From Bacteroidota bacterium (GTDB taxonomy: Bacteria > Bacteroidota > Ignavibacteria > Kryptoniales > JAKASW01), in NCBI GenBank assembly GCA_021845665.1, contig JAJZVO010000028.1, forward strand, positions 1 to 53,181: a DNA stretch of 53,181 bases, read 5' to 3'. This document shows, in pieces, positions 3,232-24,565 of the stretch. Both the position numbers and the translations under genes were made by a program. The first letter of the stretch is position 1. Every line of letters starts with the position of its first letter. The notes beneath the pieces were generated by a model. That model ran no database searches, was not told the DNA's origin, and saw nothing but the letters and a program-made list of their open reading frames with translations.

Positions 3232-4947
3232 ATGCCTAAGGTAACAATAGTTGAAGATCCCGTCAGCGGGAAAGGAAAAACAGTAGAGGTTGAAAACGGC
3301 ACTACTGTAATCCGCGCAGCGGCGAAGGTGGGTGTGGAGATTCCTCACTTTTGCTGGCACCCCGGCTTGTCCGTCGCCGGAAATTGCAGGATGTGCCTGG
3401 TTGAAATAGAGAAGATGCCGAAGCTGGCGATAGCCTGCGCGACGCAGGTTGCCGACGGTATGGTTGTACACGTCAATTCCGAAAAAGCTCTCAATGCCCG
3501 CAAGGCGGTACTCGAATTCATTCTGATCAATCATCCGCTCGATTGCCCGATATGCGATGAGGCCGGCGAGTGCAACCTGCAGGATTACACTTACAGCCAT
3601 GGTCCGGGGCACAGCGCGTTCCAGGAAGCGAAGAACAAAAAGCCGAAACGCGTTCCGCTCGGTCCAAATGTGGTTTACGATGCGGAGAGATGCATCCTCT
3701 GCTCGAGGTGCATTCGCTTCATGGACGAGATTGCGAAGGAGCCGACGCTCACTTTCGTCGAACGCGGCGACAGGGTCTTCATCGACACCTTCCCCGGGAA
3801 GGAGCTTACCAATCCCTATTCGATGAATGTGATAGACCTGTGTCCGGTCGGCGCACTTACGAACCGTGATTACAGATTCAAGGCAAGGGTCTGGGAGACT
3901 TCCTCGACAGAGGCGATCTGCACAGGGTGTGCGCGCGGCTGCAATACGAACGTCTGGGTTAGAAATAATGAGATCCTTCGCCTTACTCCGCGCAACAATC
4001 CTGAAGTGAACAACTACTGGATTTGCGACAACGGCAGGCTGAATTCTTTCAGACATGTAAATTCCGCAGATCGCATCAACTCTCCGATGATAAGGAAAGA
4101 CGGAAGTCTTCAGGAAGTCGGCTGGGACGAAGCGCTTGCCCATGCCGCCGCTGCACTGAAGCCATTTTCGAAAGATGAAGTCGCCGTACTCGGTTCTGCT
4201 TATTCGTCTGTTGAGGACAACTACATTCTCCAGAAGTTCGCGAAACAGATACTCGGAACGTCGAACATAGATTTTCTCAGACATGAGGTGCCTGGCGATG
4301 AGGATAACCTGCTCATTCGCGCAGACAAGGCCCCGAATGCTTTCGGTGCCCGCGCAGTGGGCGTCGTTTCGCCGAAGAACATGGATTCTGCCCGGATTTT
4401 TGAGCTGATCGGCGCCGGGAAGATCAAGGCGCTCTACGTCATGGACGACGAAGTCGCGGCCACAAAGGAGATCGAGGAGCTTCTCGCGAAATTGGATTTG
4501 CTCGTCGTCAACAGCTGGGTCAACAGCAAAACCACCCAGCTCGCTGACGTTATTTTCCCGAGCGCTACGTTTGCCGAGAAGTACGGCACATACGTGAACT
4601 TCCTCGGACGGGTTCAGCTCTCCCGGCCCGCCGTATCGACGCTCGATCAGGACAGAGTCCCGGGCCGTTTCAACATGAGCAGACTCGACAATTTCGGGAG
4701 CGCCTTTGACAGATGGAACAAAGGCCCGCGGCGAAATGTGAGATCGTCGTGGGAAATCATTTCGGCGATAAGCAATCTCCTCGGCGGCAAGATGCGCTAT
4801 CAATCGGCACAGAAGGTGTTCGATGAAGTAGCACAATCGGTCCCTGTCTTCAAAGGCCTGTCTTATTCGAAACTCGGCGAGCGCGGTGCGTTATTGTCCG
4901 AAGGAGCCCTCGGAAAGAAGCCCAAAGAAGAAGCGCTTGCCAGGTAA
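3232..4947 (+). CDS. nuoG: NADH-quinone oxidoreductase subunit G (short form)
   Basis: This is the iron-sulfur subunit of the complex I peripheral arm, passing electrons from the FMN subunit toward the quinone site. All cluster ligands are visible: [2Fe-2S] C41/C52/C55/C69; the His-Cys [4Fe-4S] H101/C105/C108/C114; a second [4Fe-4S] C154/C157/C160/C204; and the extra N7-type set C230/C233/C237/C265 that opens the molybdopterin-oxidoreductase-like domain. At 571 residues it is shorter than the usual 680-900; the C-terminal molybdopterin-like domain is reduced. nuoH and nuoI follow, but no nuoE/F or nuoJ-N is in the window. The ATG at 3232 lies just behind a promoter candidate. Confidence 0.93.
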   Translation: MPKVTIVEDPVSGKGKTVEVENGTTVIRAAAKVGVEIPHFCWHPGLSVAGNCRMCLVEIEKMPKLAIACATQVADGMVVHVNSEKALNARKAVLEFILINHPLDCPICDEAGECNLQDYTYSHGPGHSAFQEAKNKKPKRVPLGPNVVYDAERCILCSRCIRFMDEIAKEPTLTFVERGDRVFIDTFPGKELTNPYSMNVIDLCPVGALTNRDYRFKARVWETSSTEAICTGCARGCNTNVWVRNNEILRLTPRNNPEVNNYWICDNGRLNSFRHVNSADRINSPMIRKDGSLQEVGWDEALAHAAAALKPFSKDEVAVLGSAYSSVEDNYILQKFAKQILGTSNIDFLRHEVPGDEDNLLIRADKAPNAFGARAVGVVSPKNMDSARIFELIGAGKIKALYVMDDEVAATKEIEELLAKLDLLVVNSWVNSKTTQLADVIFPSATFAEKYGTYVNFLGRVQLSRPAVSTLDQDRVPGRFNMSRLDNFGSAFDRWNKGPRRNVRSSWEIISAISNLLGGKMRYQSAQKVFDEVAQSVPVFKGLSYSKLGERGALLSEGALGKKPKEEALAR

Positions 4948-17895: not shown

Positions 17896-18579
17896 ATGGA
17901 ACAGAAACGTACACTCCACGATGTGCCGCTCTTCGCTAAACTCTCACCGACGGAGATGAAACTTATCACCGGGATCTCGAAGAACAAGCGATTCAGAAAG
18001 GACCAGATCGTTTTTCTCGAGGGGGAACCCTTCAAGGGGTTTTATGTCCTTCTTTCCGGACGCGTCAAGATGTACAGGCTGAAGGGGAACGGGGAGGAAA
18101 CTGTGTTGGGCAGCTTCGAGCCTTACAGGAGTTTCGGGGAATCACATCTGTTCACCGGTTCCAGGTTCTACTCGTCATGCGTTCAGGCTGTTGAGGAGTC
18201 TACTGTTCTATTTGTGCCGAGCGAGGAATTCGCATCACTCCTTACCAGAAACCCTGCGCTTGCAGTAAGGATCGCGGAAGCTTCGGCGCTGAAGCTGATG
18301 GAACTCAACCGGAAACTCCAGCTTCTCGATTCTGGTGTCGACATTCGTGTTGCGAAATATCTCCTCAATGAAATCCAGCTCAACAATTCCATAAGGATGC
18401 CCGAACCTTACTTCAATCTTCTCATACACAAAAAGGATCTGGCGGCACATCTCGGCATTGCCAGCGAAACGCTTTCGCGTACTCTCAGAAAATTCAAAGA
18501 GGAAAGGATTATTCGCGAAGTTGCAAGAAAGATATTTGTCACGAACGTTAGAAAACTCAAGGGGGTTGCTGGCGAGTGA
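17896..18579 (+). CDS. Crp/Fnr family transcription regulator
   Basis: This 227-residue regulator has an N-terminal cyclic-nucleotide-type beta barrel (about 10-125), a dimer helix, and a C-terminal winged helix with KKDLAAHLGIASETLSRTLR as the recognition helix-turn-helix. Only one cysteine is present, so it cannot hold the Fnr iron-sulfur cluster. The ligand is unknown. ATG 17896 is preferred; a TTG at 17869 would add nine residues. It lies directly upstream of the hydrogenase operon (515 nt gap), so control of hox is plausible, but I found no clear TTGAT-N4-ATCAA site. Confidence 0.88.
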   Translation: MEQKRTLHDVPLFAKLSPTEMKLITGISKNKRFRKDQIVFLEGEPFKGFYVLLSGRVKMYRLKGNGEETVLGSFEPYRSFGESHLFTGSRFYSSCVQAVEESTVLFVPSEEFASLLTRNPALAVRIAEASALKLMELNRKLQLLDSGVDIRVAKYLLNEIQLNNSIRMPEPYFNLLIHKKDLAAHLGIASETLSRTLRKFKEERIIREVARKIFVTNVRKLKGVAGE

Positions 18580-18916
18580 GTCATATTGTCTTGCCGACCC
18601 GAAATCGTTACGGGAAAATCGCGTTTCGACGAGGGGTAATTCCATCTCCCCATTATGTCGTCGCAAGATTGGTTTTAGTCCGATGTTATGTAGGTCCAAT
18701 TAGCGAAGAATAGTTGGCGACTCTTGTCGGTTGAGCGCGGATTATCCAAAGATCGAAGTCTGGAATTGAGACTTTGCGGCTGCTTTCGGGGTTAATTATT
18801 TCGTCCTAAAAAGTCCGATTTGTGGCGAAAGATGGACAGGGGGTAATAATGGGACAGCAATTCTGCCGGATCAAAGCCTCCGGCTCTTAAATCGTCGTCC
18901 AAATTAATCAGTGTCA

Positions 18917-18932
18917 TGGCACGGCCTTTGCA
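18917..18932 (+). promoter_or_regulatory. Sigma-54 promoter of the hox operon
   Basis: The sequence TGGCACGGCCTTTGCA matches the sigma-54 consensus TGGCACG-N4-TTGCA at every defined base. GG (18918-18919) and GC (18930-18931) are separated by the required 10 nt. Predicted transcription start is near 18943, giving a leader of about 150 nt before hoxE. Sigma-54 control of hydrogenase operons is known from other bacteria. An activator ATPase is needed but none is encoded in the window. Confidence 0.8.
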
Positions 18933-19070
18933 AAAAATAGTCGGCTAGCGAAGATCATGTTTTGCATGCGGTGTAACTGGAATCCAAGTTTACTCGCTTC
19001 ACATTCATCTCTTCCACACTTCAGCCCTTAGGCGATTACTATCTGGAATTCAATTCTTCCCGGAGGAACG

Positions 19071-19088
19071 ATGACTATATTTCAGTAG
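19071..19088 (+). CDS. Five-codon leader ORF before hoxE
   Basis: ATG ACT ATA TTT CAG TAG (19071-19088) is preceded by a strong GGAGGA at 19062-19067. Its stop lies 5 nt before the hoxE ATG, which itself has no ribosome-binding site. This arrangement suggests re-initiation or coupling. The alternative is that hoxE starts at a rare in-frame ATT at 19079 served by the same site. Confidence 0.45.
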   Translation: MTIFQ

Positions 19089-19093
19089 ATTTC

Positions 19094-19585
19094 ATGAAGG
19101 CGGAAAGGCCTTCCGATGATAAACGCTGGAGGCTTGTCGACGCGACAATGCGAAGACACGGCCACGAACCAAACTGTCTCATAGAAGCTCTTCATACGGT
19201 TCAGGAATCGTTCGGCTATCTCGAAAAAGACGCGCTGAGATATGTCGCTTTGTCATTGCGTGTTCCTTTGAGCAAGGTGTACGGCGTCGCTACTTTCTAT
19301 CACTTTTTTTCGATGAAGCCCCAGGGCAAACACACTTGCGTGGTTTGTATGGGTACCGCGTGTTACATCAAAGGGGCGCAGAACTTGCTCGACTCCGTCA
19401 GAAGCAGAATGGTTGTTGAACCGGGCGATACCACTTCAGACGGTCAGCTCTCTCTTCTTACTGCCAGATGTGTCGGATCGTGCGGGCTTGCGCCCGCTGT
19501 CGTGATCGACAATAAAGTTCTTGGGAACGTGACGGAGTCCAGGCTCTCCGAGACTCTGGGGAGGTCGGTGGAGCATGAGCTCTGA
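19094..19585 (+). CDS. hoxE: Bidirectional hydrogenase diaphorase subunit HoxE
   Basis: This 163-residue thioredoxin-fold subunit (NuoE-like) holds a [2Fe-2S] cluster with ligands C85, C90, C126 and C130 (CMGTACY and CVGSCG). In the Hox complex it joins HoxF and HoxU in the NAD(H)-reducing half. It is the first structural gene after the sigma-54 promoter. It overlaps hoxF by 11 bp. The start at ATG 19094 is uncertain because the only Shine-Dalgarno site belongs to the preceding five-codon ORF. Confidence 0.9.
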
Positions 19586-21227
19586 AGGAAGTGTTGAAGG
19601 CGCGGCAGATCCCGGGGGGGATGGCAAAACTCATTCTCTGAACGTGTGTGTCGCGGCGGGCTGCCTTTCATCAGGCAGCGAGAAGGTCAAGGTAGCGCTC
19701 GAAGACGCGGTGAAGTCGCACGGATTGGAGCATGAGTGCAAGGTCAAGGGAGTCGGATGTCTCGGGTTATGCTCGAAGGGGCCGCTTGTCTCTGTCGAGA
19801 AGGAGAACGTAGTATACCAGGATGTTGAGCCTGGCGACGCTGCTGAGATAGTGGAAAGTCTGGGTAAAGAAGCGGTGACGAGGTTGAAGTGCGACATGGA
19901 GTCGCCGTTCTTCACGCGCCAGACGAAAATTGTCCTCGAAAACTGTGGCATCATAGATCCTGAGCGAATAGAGGATTACCTGGCCGCCGACGGTTATGAA
20001 GCGCTGTCGAAGGCTCTTACGCAGTTAACCCCTCACGATGTTGTCGATCAAATTTCGAAGAGTGGACTGCGCGGAAGAGGCGGAGCCGGTTACCCGACCG
20101 GTCTGAAGTGGAGCACGATAGCGAAGTCCGTTCCGGATTCGACGGGAAGAAAGTTCGTCATTTGCAATGCCGACGAAGGCGACCCGGGCGCGTTCATGGA
20201 CAGGAGTGTCCTGGAAAGCGACCCGTTCAGGGTTCTCGAAGGAATGGCAATTGCGGGCTACGCTACCGGTGCCAGCCAGGGTTACATTTACGTGCGAGCG
20301 GAGTATCCTCTCGCGGTAAAGCGGCTCAGGACCGCAATCAGGCAGGCCGAGAAAAGCGGTTACCTGGGCGCAAACATTTTAGATACGACGTTCAGCTTTC
20401 GCATCGATATCCGGCTCGGTGCAGGCGCATTTGTTTGCGGCGAAGAGACTGCGCTGATCGCGTCGATCGAGGGAAAGCGAGGGACTCCGCGTCCTAGGCC
20501 TCCCTATCCCGCCGAACACGGCCTTTGGGGAGCTCCTACACTCATCAACAACGTGGAGACCTACGCTAACGTGCCCGCGATCATTAGGCACGGCGGCGAA
20601 TGGTTTGCATCGCGGGGGACGGAGAAGAGTAAGGGGACGAAGGTCTTCGCGCTCGCGGGAAGGGTGCGGAACACCGGGCTTATCGAAGTCCCGATCGGCA
20701 TTACTCTTCGCGAAGTGGTTTTCGACATTGGTGGCGGCGTGCCGGATGGAAAGAAGTTCAAGGCTGTCCAAACCGGCGGACCTTCCGGAGGCTGCATCCC
20801 GGCTGAGCATCTCGACATGCCGGTGGATTACGAAACCCTTTCGCGGGTCGGGTCCATGATGGGATCGGGAGGGATGATCGTTGCCGACGAGACCTCGTGC
20901 ATGGTCGACGTCGCCAAGTTTTTCATGGAATTTTGCATGAGTGAGTCCTGCGGGAAGTGCATCCCGTGCCGTGTAGGCACGGCCCAAATGTACGACCTGC
21001 TGTGCAAGATAACGAGCGGCCAGGCATCGATGCAGGACCTCGATCTTCTGATTGAATTGTGCGACATGGTGAAAAGCACCAGCCTGTGTGGGCTCGGTCA
21101 ATCCGCTCCTAATCCAGTATTGAGCACTCTCCGCTATTTCAGGAGCGAGTACGAAGAACACATACTGAACAAGCGCTGCCCGGCCGGTGTCTGTAAAATG
21201 TCAAACGAGGTGGTGCATAATGGCTAA
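19575..21227 (+). CDS. hoxF: Bidirectional hydrogenase diaphorase subunit HoxF
   Basis: This 550-residue subunit exchanges electrons with NAD(H). An N-terminal [2Fe-2S] thioredoxin-like domain has C25, C30, C62 and C66. The FMN/NAD-binding 51-kDa domain has [13 protein letters not shown] (168-179) and [13 protein letters not shown] (198-210). The [4Fe-4S] ligands are C459, C462, C465 and C505 ([13 protein letters not shown]). The C-terminus ends just after CPAGVCK, without the extra ferredoxin domain of some relatives. It overlaps hoxE by 11 bp and hoxU by 8 bp. Confidence 0.95.
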
Positions 21228-21939
21228 ACAGGTTCAAGTCAAGACTCTCAAGATAAACGGCGTCGATGTAGGCGGAAGGGGAGACCAGACGATACTGCAA
21301 GTTGCGAGGGAACACGATATCGAGATGCCGACACTGTGCCATATCGAAGGGCTGTCCGATGTCGGTGCATGTCGTCTATGCCTGGTGGAGGTGAAAGGGA
21401 TTAACAAACTCATTCCCTCATGTACGACGCTCGTCGAGGAAGGGATGGAAGTTACGACAAATTCCGAGCGTCTTGCGAAATACAGGAAGATGGTACTGGA
21501 GCTTCTCTTCGCGGAGCGCAACCATATCTGTTCCGTATGCGTGAGCAACGGGCATTGCGATCTCCAGGACCTTGCAAGGCTCTTAGGAGTCACCCATGTA
21601 AGGTATCCTTATCGTTACCCGAGGCTTTCGGTCGACGCATCCCACCAACGGTTCGTCCTTGACCAGAACCGATGCATTCTCTGTACCCGGTGCGTCAGGG
21701 TATGCGACGAAATTGAAGGCGCTCATACCTGGGATGTCATGGGCAGAGGAATAGAGGCAAAGGTAATCACCGACCTCAACCAGCCGTGGGGCTCTTCGGA
21801 GACTTGTACGAGCTGCGGGAAATGCGTCCAGGTATGTCCTACCGGAGCGCTATCTGAGAAAGGTAAGTCGGTAGCCGAAATGTCCAAGAGGCGTCAGTTC
21901 CTTCCATATCTGACCACGATGAGAGAGGAGCGGGAATGA
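21220..21939 (+). CDS. hoxU: Bidirectional hydrogenase diaphorase subunit HoxU
   Basis: This 239-residue NuoG-N-terminus-like subunit wires HoxF to the hydrogenase. [2Fe-2S] ligands are C40, C51, C54 and C68; the His-Cys cluster is H102/C104/C107/C113; two ferredoxin motifs are C152/C155/C158/C162 and C196/C199/C202/C206. The start is ATG 21220, inside the hoxF end (8-bp overlap) and behind GAGGTGG; an upstream in-frame ATG at 21187 lies deep within hoxF. Compared with NuoG from 3232, the molybdopterin-like domain is absent, as expected for HoxU. Confidence 0.94.
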
Positions 21940-21964
21940 AGAACGTGCGGGGAGTCAACGAATT

Positions 21965-22498
21965 ATGAAGAAGATAAAATTTGCCACTGTCTGGCTTGAC
22001 GGCTGTTCGGGTTGTCATATGTCGTTTCTCGATATCGACGAAAAGCTCCTTGACCTTGCAGGGAAAATAGACGTCGTATATAGTCCGCTCGTAGACAATA
22101 AGACTTTCCCTGGCGATGTCGATCTGACACTTGTCGAGGGAGCAGTTTCGAGCGATGAAGACCTGGAAAAGATCCGCAGTATTCGCACTAGGACTAAGCT
22201 CCTTGTCGCGCTCGGAGATTGCGCGGTTACAGGGAACATTCCGTCGATGCGAAATCAGTTCGGTATGAACGCGGTACTCCGAAGGGCGTATGTTGAGAAC
22301 AAGACTATAGGCGGAAAAATCCCGAACGTGAATCTCCCGACTCTTCTGCCGGAAGTAAGGCCTGTACACGAGCTTGTAAGAGTCGATCATTTTCTTCCCG
22401 GCTGTCCTCCTCCGGCTGAAGTCATCGAGTATTTGATAGATGAACTTCTCGCCGGCCGAACTCCCGATCCGGAGCGCCGGACTCGGTTCGGACTTTAA
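21965..22498 (+). CDS. hoxY: [NiFe] hydrogenase small subunit HoxY
   Basis: This 177-residue small subunit carries the proximal [4Fe-4S] cluster, with ligands C14 and C17 (DGCSGCH), C86 (GDCAVTG) and C147 (PGCPPP). No Tat signal is present, so the enzyme is cytoplasmic, fitting group 3d. It is 25 nt behind hoxU and 28 nt ahead of hoxH. The short length with a single cluster is typical of NAD-linked hydrogenases. Confidence 0.95.
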
Positions 22499-22526
22499 TG
22501 ATAATCGTTGTTCAGAGGAATATCGT

Positions 22527-23948
22527 ATGTCCAAACAGATAATCATAGATCCCGTTACCAGAATTGAGGGGCACGGGAAGATTACAATTCAGCTTGATGA
22601 AGACGGTTCAGTGAAGGACGCCTTCTTTCACGTCACTCAGATAAGAGGGTTCGAGAAATTCTGCGAGGGGAGGCCTTTCTATGAAATGCCTTCCTTGATG
22701 GCGAGGATCTGCGGGATATGCCCGGTGAGCCATCTCATCGCTTCGGCGAAGGCTTGCGACGCTATTCTGGGTGTCGTAATTCCTCCTGCTGCTGAAAAGC
22801 TGCGCCGCATCATGAACCTCGCGCAGATAATAGAGTCGCACGCGCTCAGTTTCTTCTACCTCGCTTCGCCGGATTTGCTTCTCGGAATGGATTCTGACCC
22901 CGCGTCAAGGAACATTTTCGGAGTATTAAAAAATAATCCAACCCTGGCAAGGGACGGTGTCCGGATGAGGCAGATGGGCCAGCAGGTTGTCGAGTGGCTC
23001 GGCGGCAAACGGATTCATCCGTCATGGATTGTCCCGGGCGGTGTCAACGAGCCGCTCACAGTCGAAAAGCGAGACCAGATTTTGTCGGCAGTTCCGGAGG
23101 GACTTTTCATTGTCGAGCGCACACTCGAGTGGTTCCGCGGGATACTCGGGAAGTTCGGCAGGGAAATCCAGGAGTTCGCCAACTTCCCCACACTGTATGT
23201 CGGACTCGTCGATTCTGACGGCGGGCTGGAGCATTACGACGGAAAGATCAGGGTAATGGACGCAAGCGGAAACATAATTTCCGACATGCTGGAACCCGGG
23301 AGTTATGATGATTATATCGGTGAAGCCGTTGAACCCTTCAGCTTCCTGAAATTCCCCTACTACAAGCCGATGGGTTACGAGGATGGGATATATCGCGTAG
23401 GTCCGCTCGCGCGCCTTAATATCGTGAACCGCTGCGGCACGAAGCGGGCCGACGAAATGCTTCAGGAGTATAAAGAACTCGGACGCGAGGTGGTACAGAG
23501 TTCGTTTCATTACCACTTCGCAAGGCTGATTGAAATAGTGTTCGCGTTCGAAAAAATCAAGGAACTCCTCGGGGAAGACGACATTCTCGATACGCGCGTC
23601 AGGGCTCATGCCGAACCTAACAACCTGGAAGGGATAGGTGTATCGGAAGCCCCCCGGGGAACGCTTATACATCATTACAAGGTCGATGGCAACGGACTGG
23701 TTACGTGGGCGAACCTGATAATCGCCACGGGTCACAATAATCTCGCGATGAACCGCGGAGTTCTCCAGGTCGCCAGAGCCTTCGTGCATGGAAAACAAAT
23801 GACTGACGGTATGCTCAATCGTGTCGAGGCGGTGATTCGCGCTTATGACCCATGTCTAAGCTGCTCAACGCACGCGGTCGGACAGATGCCGCTCAGGATT
23901 CAGCTCCGCTCGAGTGCGGGAGAAATTGTCGATGAGGTGGTAAGATAA
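22527..23948 (+). CDS. hoxH: [NiFe] hydrogenase large subunit HoxH
   Basis: The 473-residue catalytic subunit binds the NiFe(CN)2CO site through C62 and C65 ([10 protein letters not shown]) and C443 and C446 (DPCLSCSTH). The last 24 residues after H449 form the tail removed by the maturation protease, starting [10 protein letters not shown]. The start is ATG 22527 with AGAGGA upstream; a longer frame from 22440 overlaps hoxY and lacks family similarity. hoxW follows 1 nt after the stop. The protein should catalyse reversible H2 oxidation coupled to NAD+ reduction. Confidence 0.96.
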
Positions 23949-23949
23949 A

Positions 23950-24441
23950 ATGCATGACATCGTAGTTATCGGATGCGGCAACCCATTGCGAGGCGACGAC
24001 GGCGCCGGATGGTACGCCGTGGATGAGATCGAGAAAAATTCCGACATAGATAAAATCAGGTTTCTTAAATGCAGGGAGCTGGGGCCGGAACTGTCTGAAA
24101 GTCTCAGCCGTTCCAGGCACGCTCTGTTCATCGATGTGTCGGTCAAGGAGGAAGGTGGCGTGGTGAGAGAGGAAAAATTGCTGCCATCCCCACCAGTGAC
24201 CGCGGTCGACGCTCACAGCCTCGAACCGGAGTCGCTTCTTTCATTGTCGGAAGCGCTCTACGGCCACGTGCCCGGTTCGATACTTCTTTCAGTCCCAGGC
24301 AAATCATTCGGATACGAAGAGAGGATATCAGATGACCTTGCGGGTCCTCTGAAGAAACTCGTTGAAAGGGCTCGCTCCATACTCGATGAATGGATAATCG
24401 AGACTGACAGGGAACGGTTAATTTCTAACGTCGCTGACTGA
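23950..24441 (+). CDS. hoxW: Hydrogenase maturation protease
   Basis: This 163-residue HycI/HybD-type endopeptidase is expected to clip the HoxH tail after nickel insertion. It starts MHDIVVIGCGNPLRGDDGAG, and the likely metal-sensing acids D16/D17 and D62 plus H89 are at family positions. It begins 1 nt after hoxH, so it is dedicated to this enzyme. The hyp genes for NiFe-cofactor assembly are not in the window. Confidence 0.92.
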   Translation: MHDIVVIGCGNPLRGDDGAGWYAVDEIEKNSDIDKIRFLKCRELGPELSESLSRSRHALFIDVSVKEEGGVVREEKLLPSPPVTAVDAHSLEPESLLSLSEALYGHVPGSILLSVPGKSFGYEERISDDLAGPLKKLVERARSILDEWIIETDRERLISNVAD

Positions 24442-24565
24442 AGCAGAGGGAATCCGTATTCTTTCCATGTTCTCCATGTGCATTGACGTGCGTGGGTAAA
24501 GAGGCATCAGGAGGAAAAGGCAGATGGCAACATCTCTTCGGCTGCTTAATTTTCTTGTCCCGCTT

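Follow-up and report, generated by a model that had tools for sequence, protein, structure and literature searches.

A probable sigma-54 promoter in front of the hox operon of a group 3d NAD-coupled NiFe hydrogenase in a Bacteroidota bacterium

In C. necator (Ralstonia eutropha) H16, the promoter PSH of hoxFUYHWI, a group 3d hydrogenase operon, is dependent on sigma-54 and HoxA, and its reported site is TTGGCGCACATCCTGC (PMC4974937, PMC4377017). Control of the cyanobacterial hox genes is reported to involve the LexA and cyAbrB proteins (PMC4759255, PMC11368403). A 2025 cross-phylum survey of sigma-54 identified NiFe hydrogenase subunits as targets in Proteobacteria; the enrichments that it names for Bacteroidota concern other genes, and it makes no mention of Ignavibacteria (PMC12316311). 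The kind of switch described below is already known from C. necator, and a literature search combining Ignavibacteria, hydrogenase and rpoN, with subscription journals outside its range, found nothing, that is, no earlier report in this lineage.

The stretch of DNA analysed here (the window, 53,181 nucleotides) contains hoxEFUYH followed by a maturation protease gene. The HoxE, HoxF and HoxU diaphorase is encoded together with HoxY and HoxH in one operon, which identifies a group 3d NAD-coupled NiFe hydrogenase (Table 1). In the intergenic region before hoxE, and oriented toward hoxEFUYHW, the forward strand matches TGGCACG-N4-TTGCA in full; its GG occupies 18918-18919 and its GC 18930-18931, hence the spacing GG-N10-GC. 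The original prediction had announced this full match and spacing, and both its sequence and its coordinates were exact. It is the sole match without mismatches in the window, and also the sole exact match in the 4.64-Mb genome; by chance, one would expect 0.007 exact matches per window, approximately 0.6 per genome with both strands counted and, on the coding strand of the 510-bp intergenic region, 2e-5. The relaxed motif TGGCAYR-N4-TTGCW has three matches in 4.64 Mb, compared with one for the reversed control; with two mismatches allowed, the genome holds 250 sites against 271 for the control, which is no enrichment. Because of this lack of enrichment and of the number of exact matches expected per genome, the consensus match taken alone is suggestive and does not amount to proof. 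The remaining two relaxed sites of the genome are also intergenic. One of them (C102:26178, equivalent to L048:8179), TGGCATGGCCATTGCA, ranks second among the sigma-54 sites of the genome and lies after a hybrid histidine kinase, 113 bp before the gene of a small secreted repeat-like protein; the other (C123:5186) precedes a transposase-like gene. From the predicted transcription start to the ATG of hoxE, the leader would be 151 nt long. No intrinsic terminator was found in 18500-19150.

Table 1. Coordinates of the predicted and annotated features of the hox region in the window
Feature	Position	Strand	Remarks
Crp/Fnr-family regulator (core gene, on the left side of the cassette)	17896-18579	+	cNMP_binding and HTH_Crp_2; orthologues in hox-less congeners
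Inserted cassette (promoter region and hoxEFUYHW) between crp and dnaB	18591-24560	+	~5.97 kb; synteny breaks
Candidate activator site, inverted repeat GCCGGA-N8-TCCGGC	18865-18884	+	33 bp before the -24 element; not conserved in G006, weak
Probable sigma-54 (-24/-12) promoter TGGCACGGCCTTTGCA	18917-18932	+	Exact consensus; kept in congener G006; sites of this kind recur before hoxE in the class
Predicted transcription start	G18943	+	12 nt past the C of the GC element; predicted from spacing
hoxE	19094-19585	+	NF005747 HoxE, 237 bits, over cut-off
hoxF	19575-21227	+	Complex1_51K and NADH_4Fe-4S
hoxU	21187-21939	+	NF005745 HoxU, 411 bits, over cut-off
hoxY (hydrogenase small subunit)	21965-22498	+	Oxidored_q6; VhuG-like
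hoxH (NiFe large subunit)	22440-23948	+	NiFeSe_Hases
Hydrogenase maturation protease (hoxW-like)	23950-24441	+	TIGR00072, over cut-off

Conservation is the strongest evidence for a sigma-54 promoter. Congener G006 carries crp, hoxEFUYH and the protease in the same order as the window, and it retains CGGCACG-N4-TTGCAAAA although the rest of its intergenic region has diverged and is largely unalignable with that of the window. The site itself reads CGGCACGCACTTTGCAAAA in G006; from the -24 element on, 16 of 20 bases are identical in the two genomes, and elsewhere mostly 1-5 of 10. Within the crp-hox intergenic region it is mainly the -24/-12 element that is conserved between the congeners, and the comparison of the window with G006 found no conserved upstream activator site.

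Recurrence in the class (probably Ignavibacteria) was assessed in 49 members in which 300 bp or more precede hoxE, using a matrix whose weights were set by hand after the known consensus and a score of at least 40 to define a strong site. Strong sites directed toward hoxE are present in 11 of the 49 upstream regions and in none on the other strand, and the Markov-shuffled null averages 0.18 and never exceeds 1. The matrix is strict, since it would give the PSH promoter of C. necator, a proven one, a score of 36, and 11/49 is therefore a lower bound and the absence calls are soft. Examples of strong sites include TGGCATGCCTGTTGCA (L043), TGGCATGCGAGTTGCA (L176), TGGCATGCTCATTGCA (L175) and TGGCACGCGCATTGCG (L162), and in family f17 weaker, position-conserved forms recur, such as TAGCACACTATTTGCT. 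Families f3, f4 and f14 include genomes without a strong site before hox, which must express hox in another way, so that sigma-54 is not obligatory. Among approximately 70 hox loci of other phyla in which hoxE was found, none reaches a score of 40 within 450 bp. As unrelated operon copies in related bacteria carry the same signal, the promoter is very probably real; its position, combined with conservation upstream of hoxE, puts it well beyond chance. The genome search for rpoN that the original prediction had proposed found one copy (PF04552 at C62:21355, E 4.6e-53), and together with the G006 conservation and the recurrence in the class this leaves the predicted sigma-54 promoter of the hox operon very probably a working one. 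We estimate at approximately 0.88 the probability that this site serves as main promoter for hoxEFUYHW.

The alternative that survives best, improbable as we consider it, is that the sigma-54 promoter is secondary and that the main one is a housekeeping promoter (Bacteroidota-type, -33/-7) under the adjacent Crp/Fnr regulator. The Crp/Fnr gene is indeed directly upstream in both hox-bearing congeners, and most hox operons of other lineages have no sigma-54 site, but the gene is core (12 of the 13 genomes of the genus) and has the same place in hox-less congeners, so that the insertion site accounts for its position next to hox. Furthermore, a consensus scan, of a kind that does not cover Bacteroidota-type promoters, found no sigma-70-like site in 18500-19150, and it is the -24/-12 element that was mainly kept in the intergenic region. 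A Crp/Fnr regulator dedicated to hox was rejected because the gene is core and occurs without hox. As for the earlier suggestion that Crp/Fnr offers a second input, the location of the gene directly upstream is correct, while a special role is weakened by its presence without hox.

It is less probable still that the promoter is real and the operon is decaying in this genome, a reading that draws on the start of hoxE. In 19062-19096 a ribosome-binding-like GGAGG is followed by ATG 19071, which opens MTIFQ and then a stop; the HoxE frame runs from ATG 19094. At the start equivalent to 19071, G006 reads without interruption into HoxE, and the two genomes differ here by a frame-shifting length change or by an assembly error. 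Against decay, all the hox reading frames are open, ATG 19094 corresponds to Met6 of the G006 HoxE, and an assembly error is possible or reinitiation may suffice. A chance match without function is the least credible reading, for although approximately 0.6 exact matches per genome and the lack of enrichment at two mismatches would allow it, the location and orientation of the site, its footprint in G006 and the class-wide count of 11 sites in forward and 0 in reverse orientation speak against it. On a separate matter, hypD was not found in the genome and is present in G006 (C17:13489); its absence is probably an assembly gap, the genome being 95.6% complete, and without such a gap the maturation of HoxH would be unexplained.

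If the site is the main promoter, sigma-54 RNA polymerase would bind the -24/-12 element in a closed complex, which a resident AAA+ activator, itself bound upstream, would open by ATP hydrolysis, and transcription would begin near 18943. The genome has approximately 20 full sigma-54 activators (PF00158, AAA+), none of them within the window, and no NtrC-family activator is linked to hydrogenase genes in the window or in the examined G006 DNA around hox. An activator specific to the hox-bearing congeners was sought and rejected: all those shared with G006, roughly ten, also occur in the hox-less G003. For this reason a resident activator is the likeliest one for the hox promoter, and one of the genome's own activators seems to run the operon; no activator shared by the two hox-bearing genomes passed a naming cut-off of NCBIfam. 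H2 sensors belong to the group 1/2 enzymes. The NiFe large subunits found in the genome are HoxH and one more (C108), the latter with low group-3-like scores; nothing scores like group 1/2, and no H2-sensing-type hydrogenase was found in this 95.6% complete genome. The proposed tie to an H2-sensing activator thus found no support, either in the genome's hydrogenases or in the activator content of the window.

The promoter region and the operon form one inserted cassette, as blastn synteny with the hox-less congeners stops at 18590 and resumes at 24560. These congeners have the empty site, in which crp is followed by a few dozen bases and then by the convergent dnaB. The cassette has a G+C content similar to its surroundings, and no mobile-element repeats were found at its ends. 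G006 has the same crp-hox junction as the window, but there hox and dnaB lie 24 kb apart. A DNA search of the genus for an ancestral copy of the promoter region detected none in the hox-less congeners, a weak negative given that the same search misses the diverged region of G006. In a HoxF tree built by a quick method, the window and G006 group together (100) amid Acidobacteriota, Sumerlaeota and unnamed relatives, separate from the main clade of the class (98), to which the other strong sigma-54 cases belong. The nearest HoxF relatives outside the genus have no strong sigma-54 site. The operon reached this genus as a cassette inserted between crp and dnaB. Since the HoxF phylogeny does not place it in the main clade of the class, at least two recruitments of sigma-54 promoters are probable.

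Other loci of the class also carry sigma-54-related features. In several families, a sigma-54 activator of the single-domain type, with AAA+ and HTH but lacking a sensor domain, repeatedly adjoins a hydrogenase small subunit, at L039:1077-2045 (-), L206 ~1993-2943 and 3490-4698 (+) and L238-L253, and the NiFe hydrogenase small subunit with a Tat signal beside this activator has its own sigma-54 site. The single-domain activator of the G058 hydrogenase cluster was considered as hox activator for the window and rejected, being absent from both its genome and G006. In family f3, sigma-54-like sites (L265:2585, L267:2593) are found near reading frames that by eye resemble electron-transfer flavoproteins, close to the same activator family. 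In family f17 they precede a large gene, pyruvate phosphate dikinase-like by eye (L039:12476 and 12632; L169:9053; L173:438; L188:7881), and a second sigma-54-like site of L039 faces a divergent MerR-like gene. A tentative reading, to which we give somewhat less than even odds, is that the class recruited sigma-54 control onto hydrogenases repeatedly and independently: on the incoming hox cassette of this genus, on the class's own hox lineage and on the Tat-exported respiratory-type hydrogenase, the one that adjoins the single-domain activator. If so, there would be a lineage-wide sigma-54 hydrogen regulon, in which resident or single-domain activators replace the HoxA/H2-sensor system.

With the site as main promoter, sigma-54 control of NAD-coupled hydrogenases, so far a matter of Proteobacteria, would extend to a lineage that is related to Bacteroidota and largely uncultured, and a transferred metabolic cassette would apparently have been plugged into resident sigma-54 regulation; the predicted start at 18943 is precise and easily tested. 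Among known systems, the Synechocystis hoxEFUYH operon has the same HoxEFUYH gene content as the window, but cyanobacterial hox is reported under LexA/cyAbrB and not under sigma-54 as proposed here. The closest known case is PSH of C. necator, where a sigma-54 promoter likewise stands immediately upstream of a group 3d, NAD-coupled NiFe hydrogenase. While C. necator has HoxA, HoxJ and a regulatory hydrogenase, the genome studied here has no H2-sensing-type hydrogenase that we could find and no activator linked to hox; the site of the window is nearer to the consensus than that of PSH.
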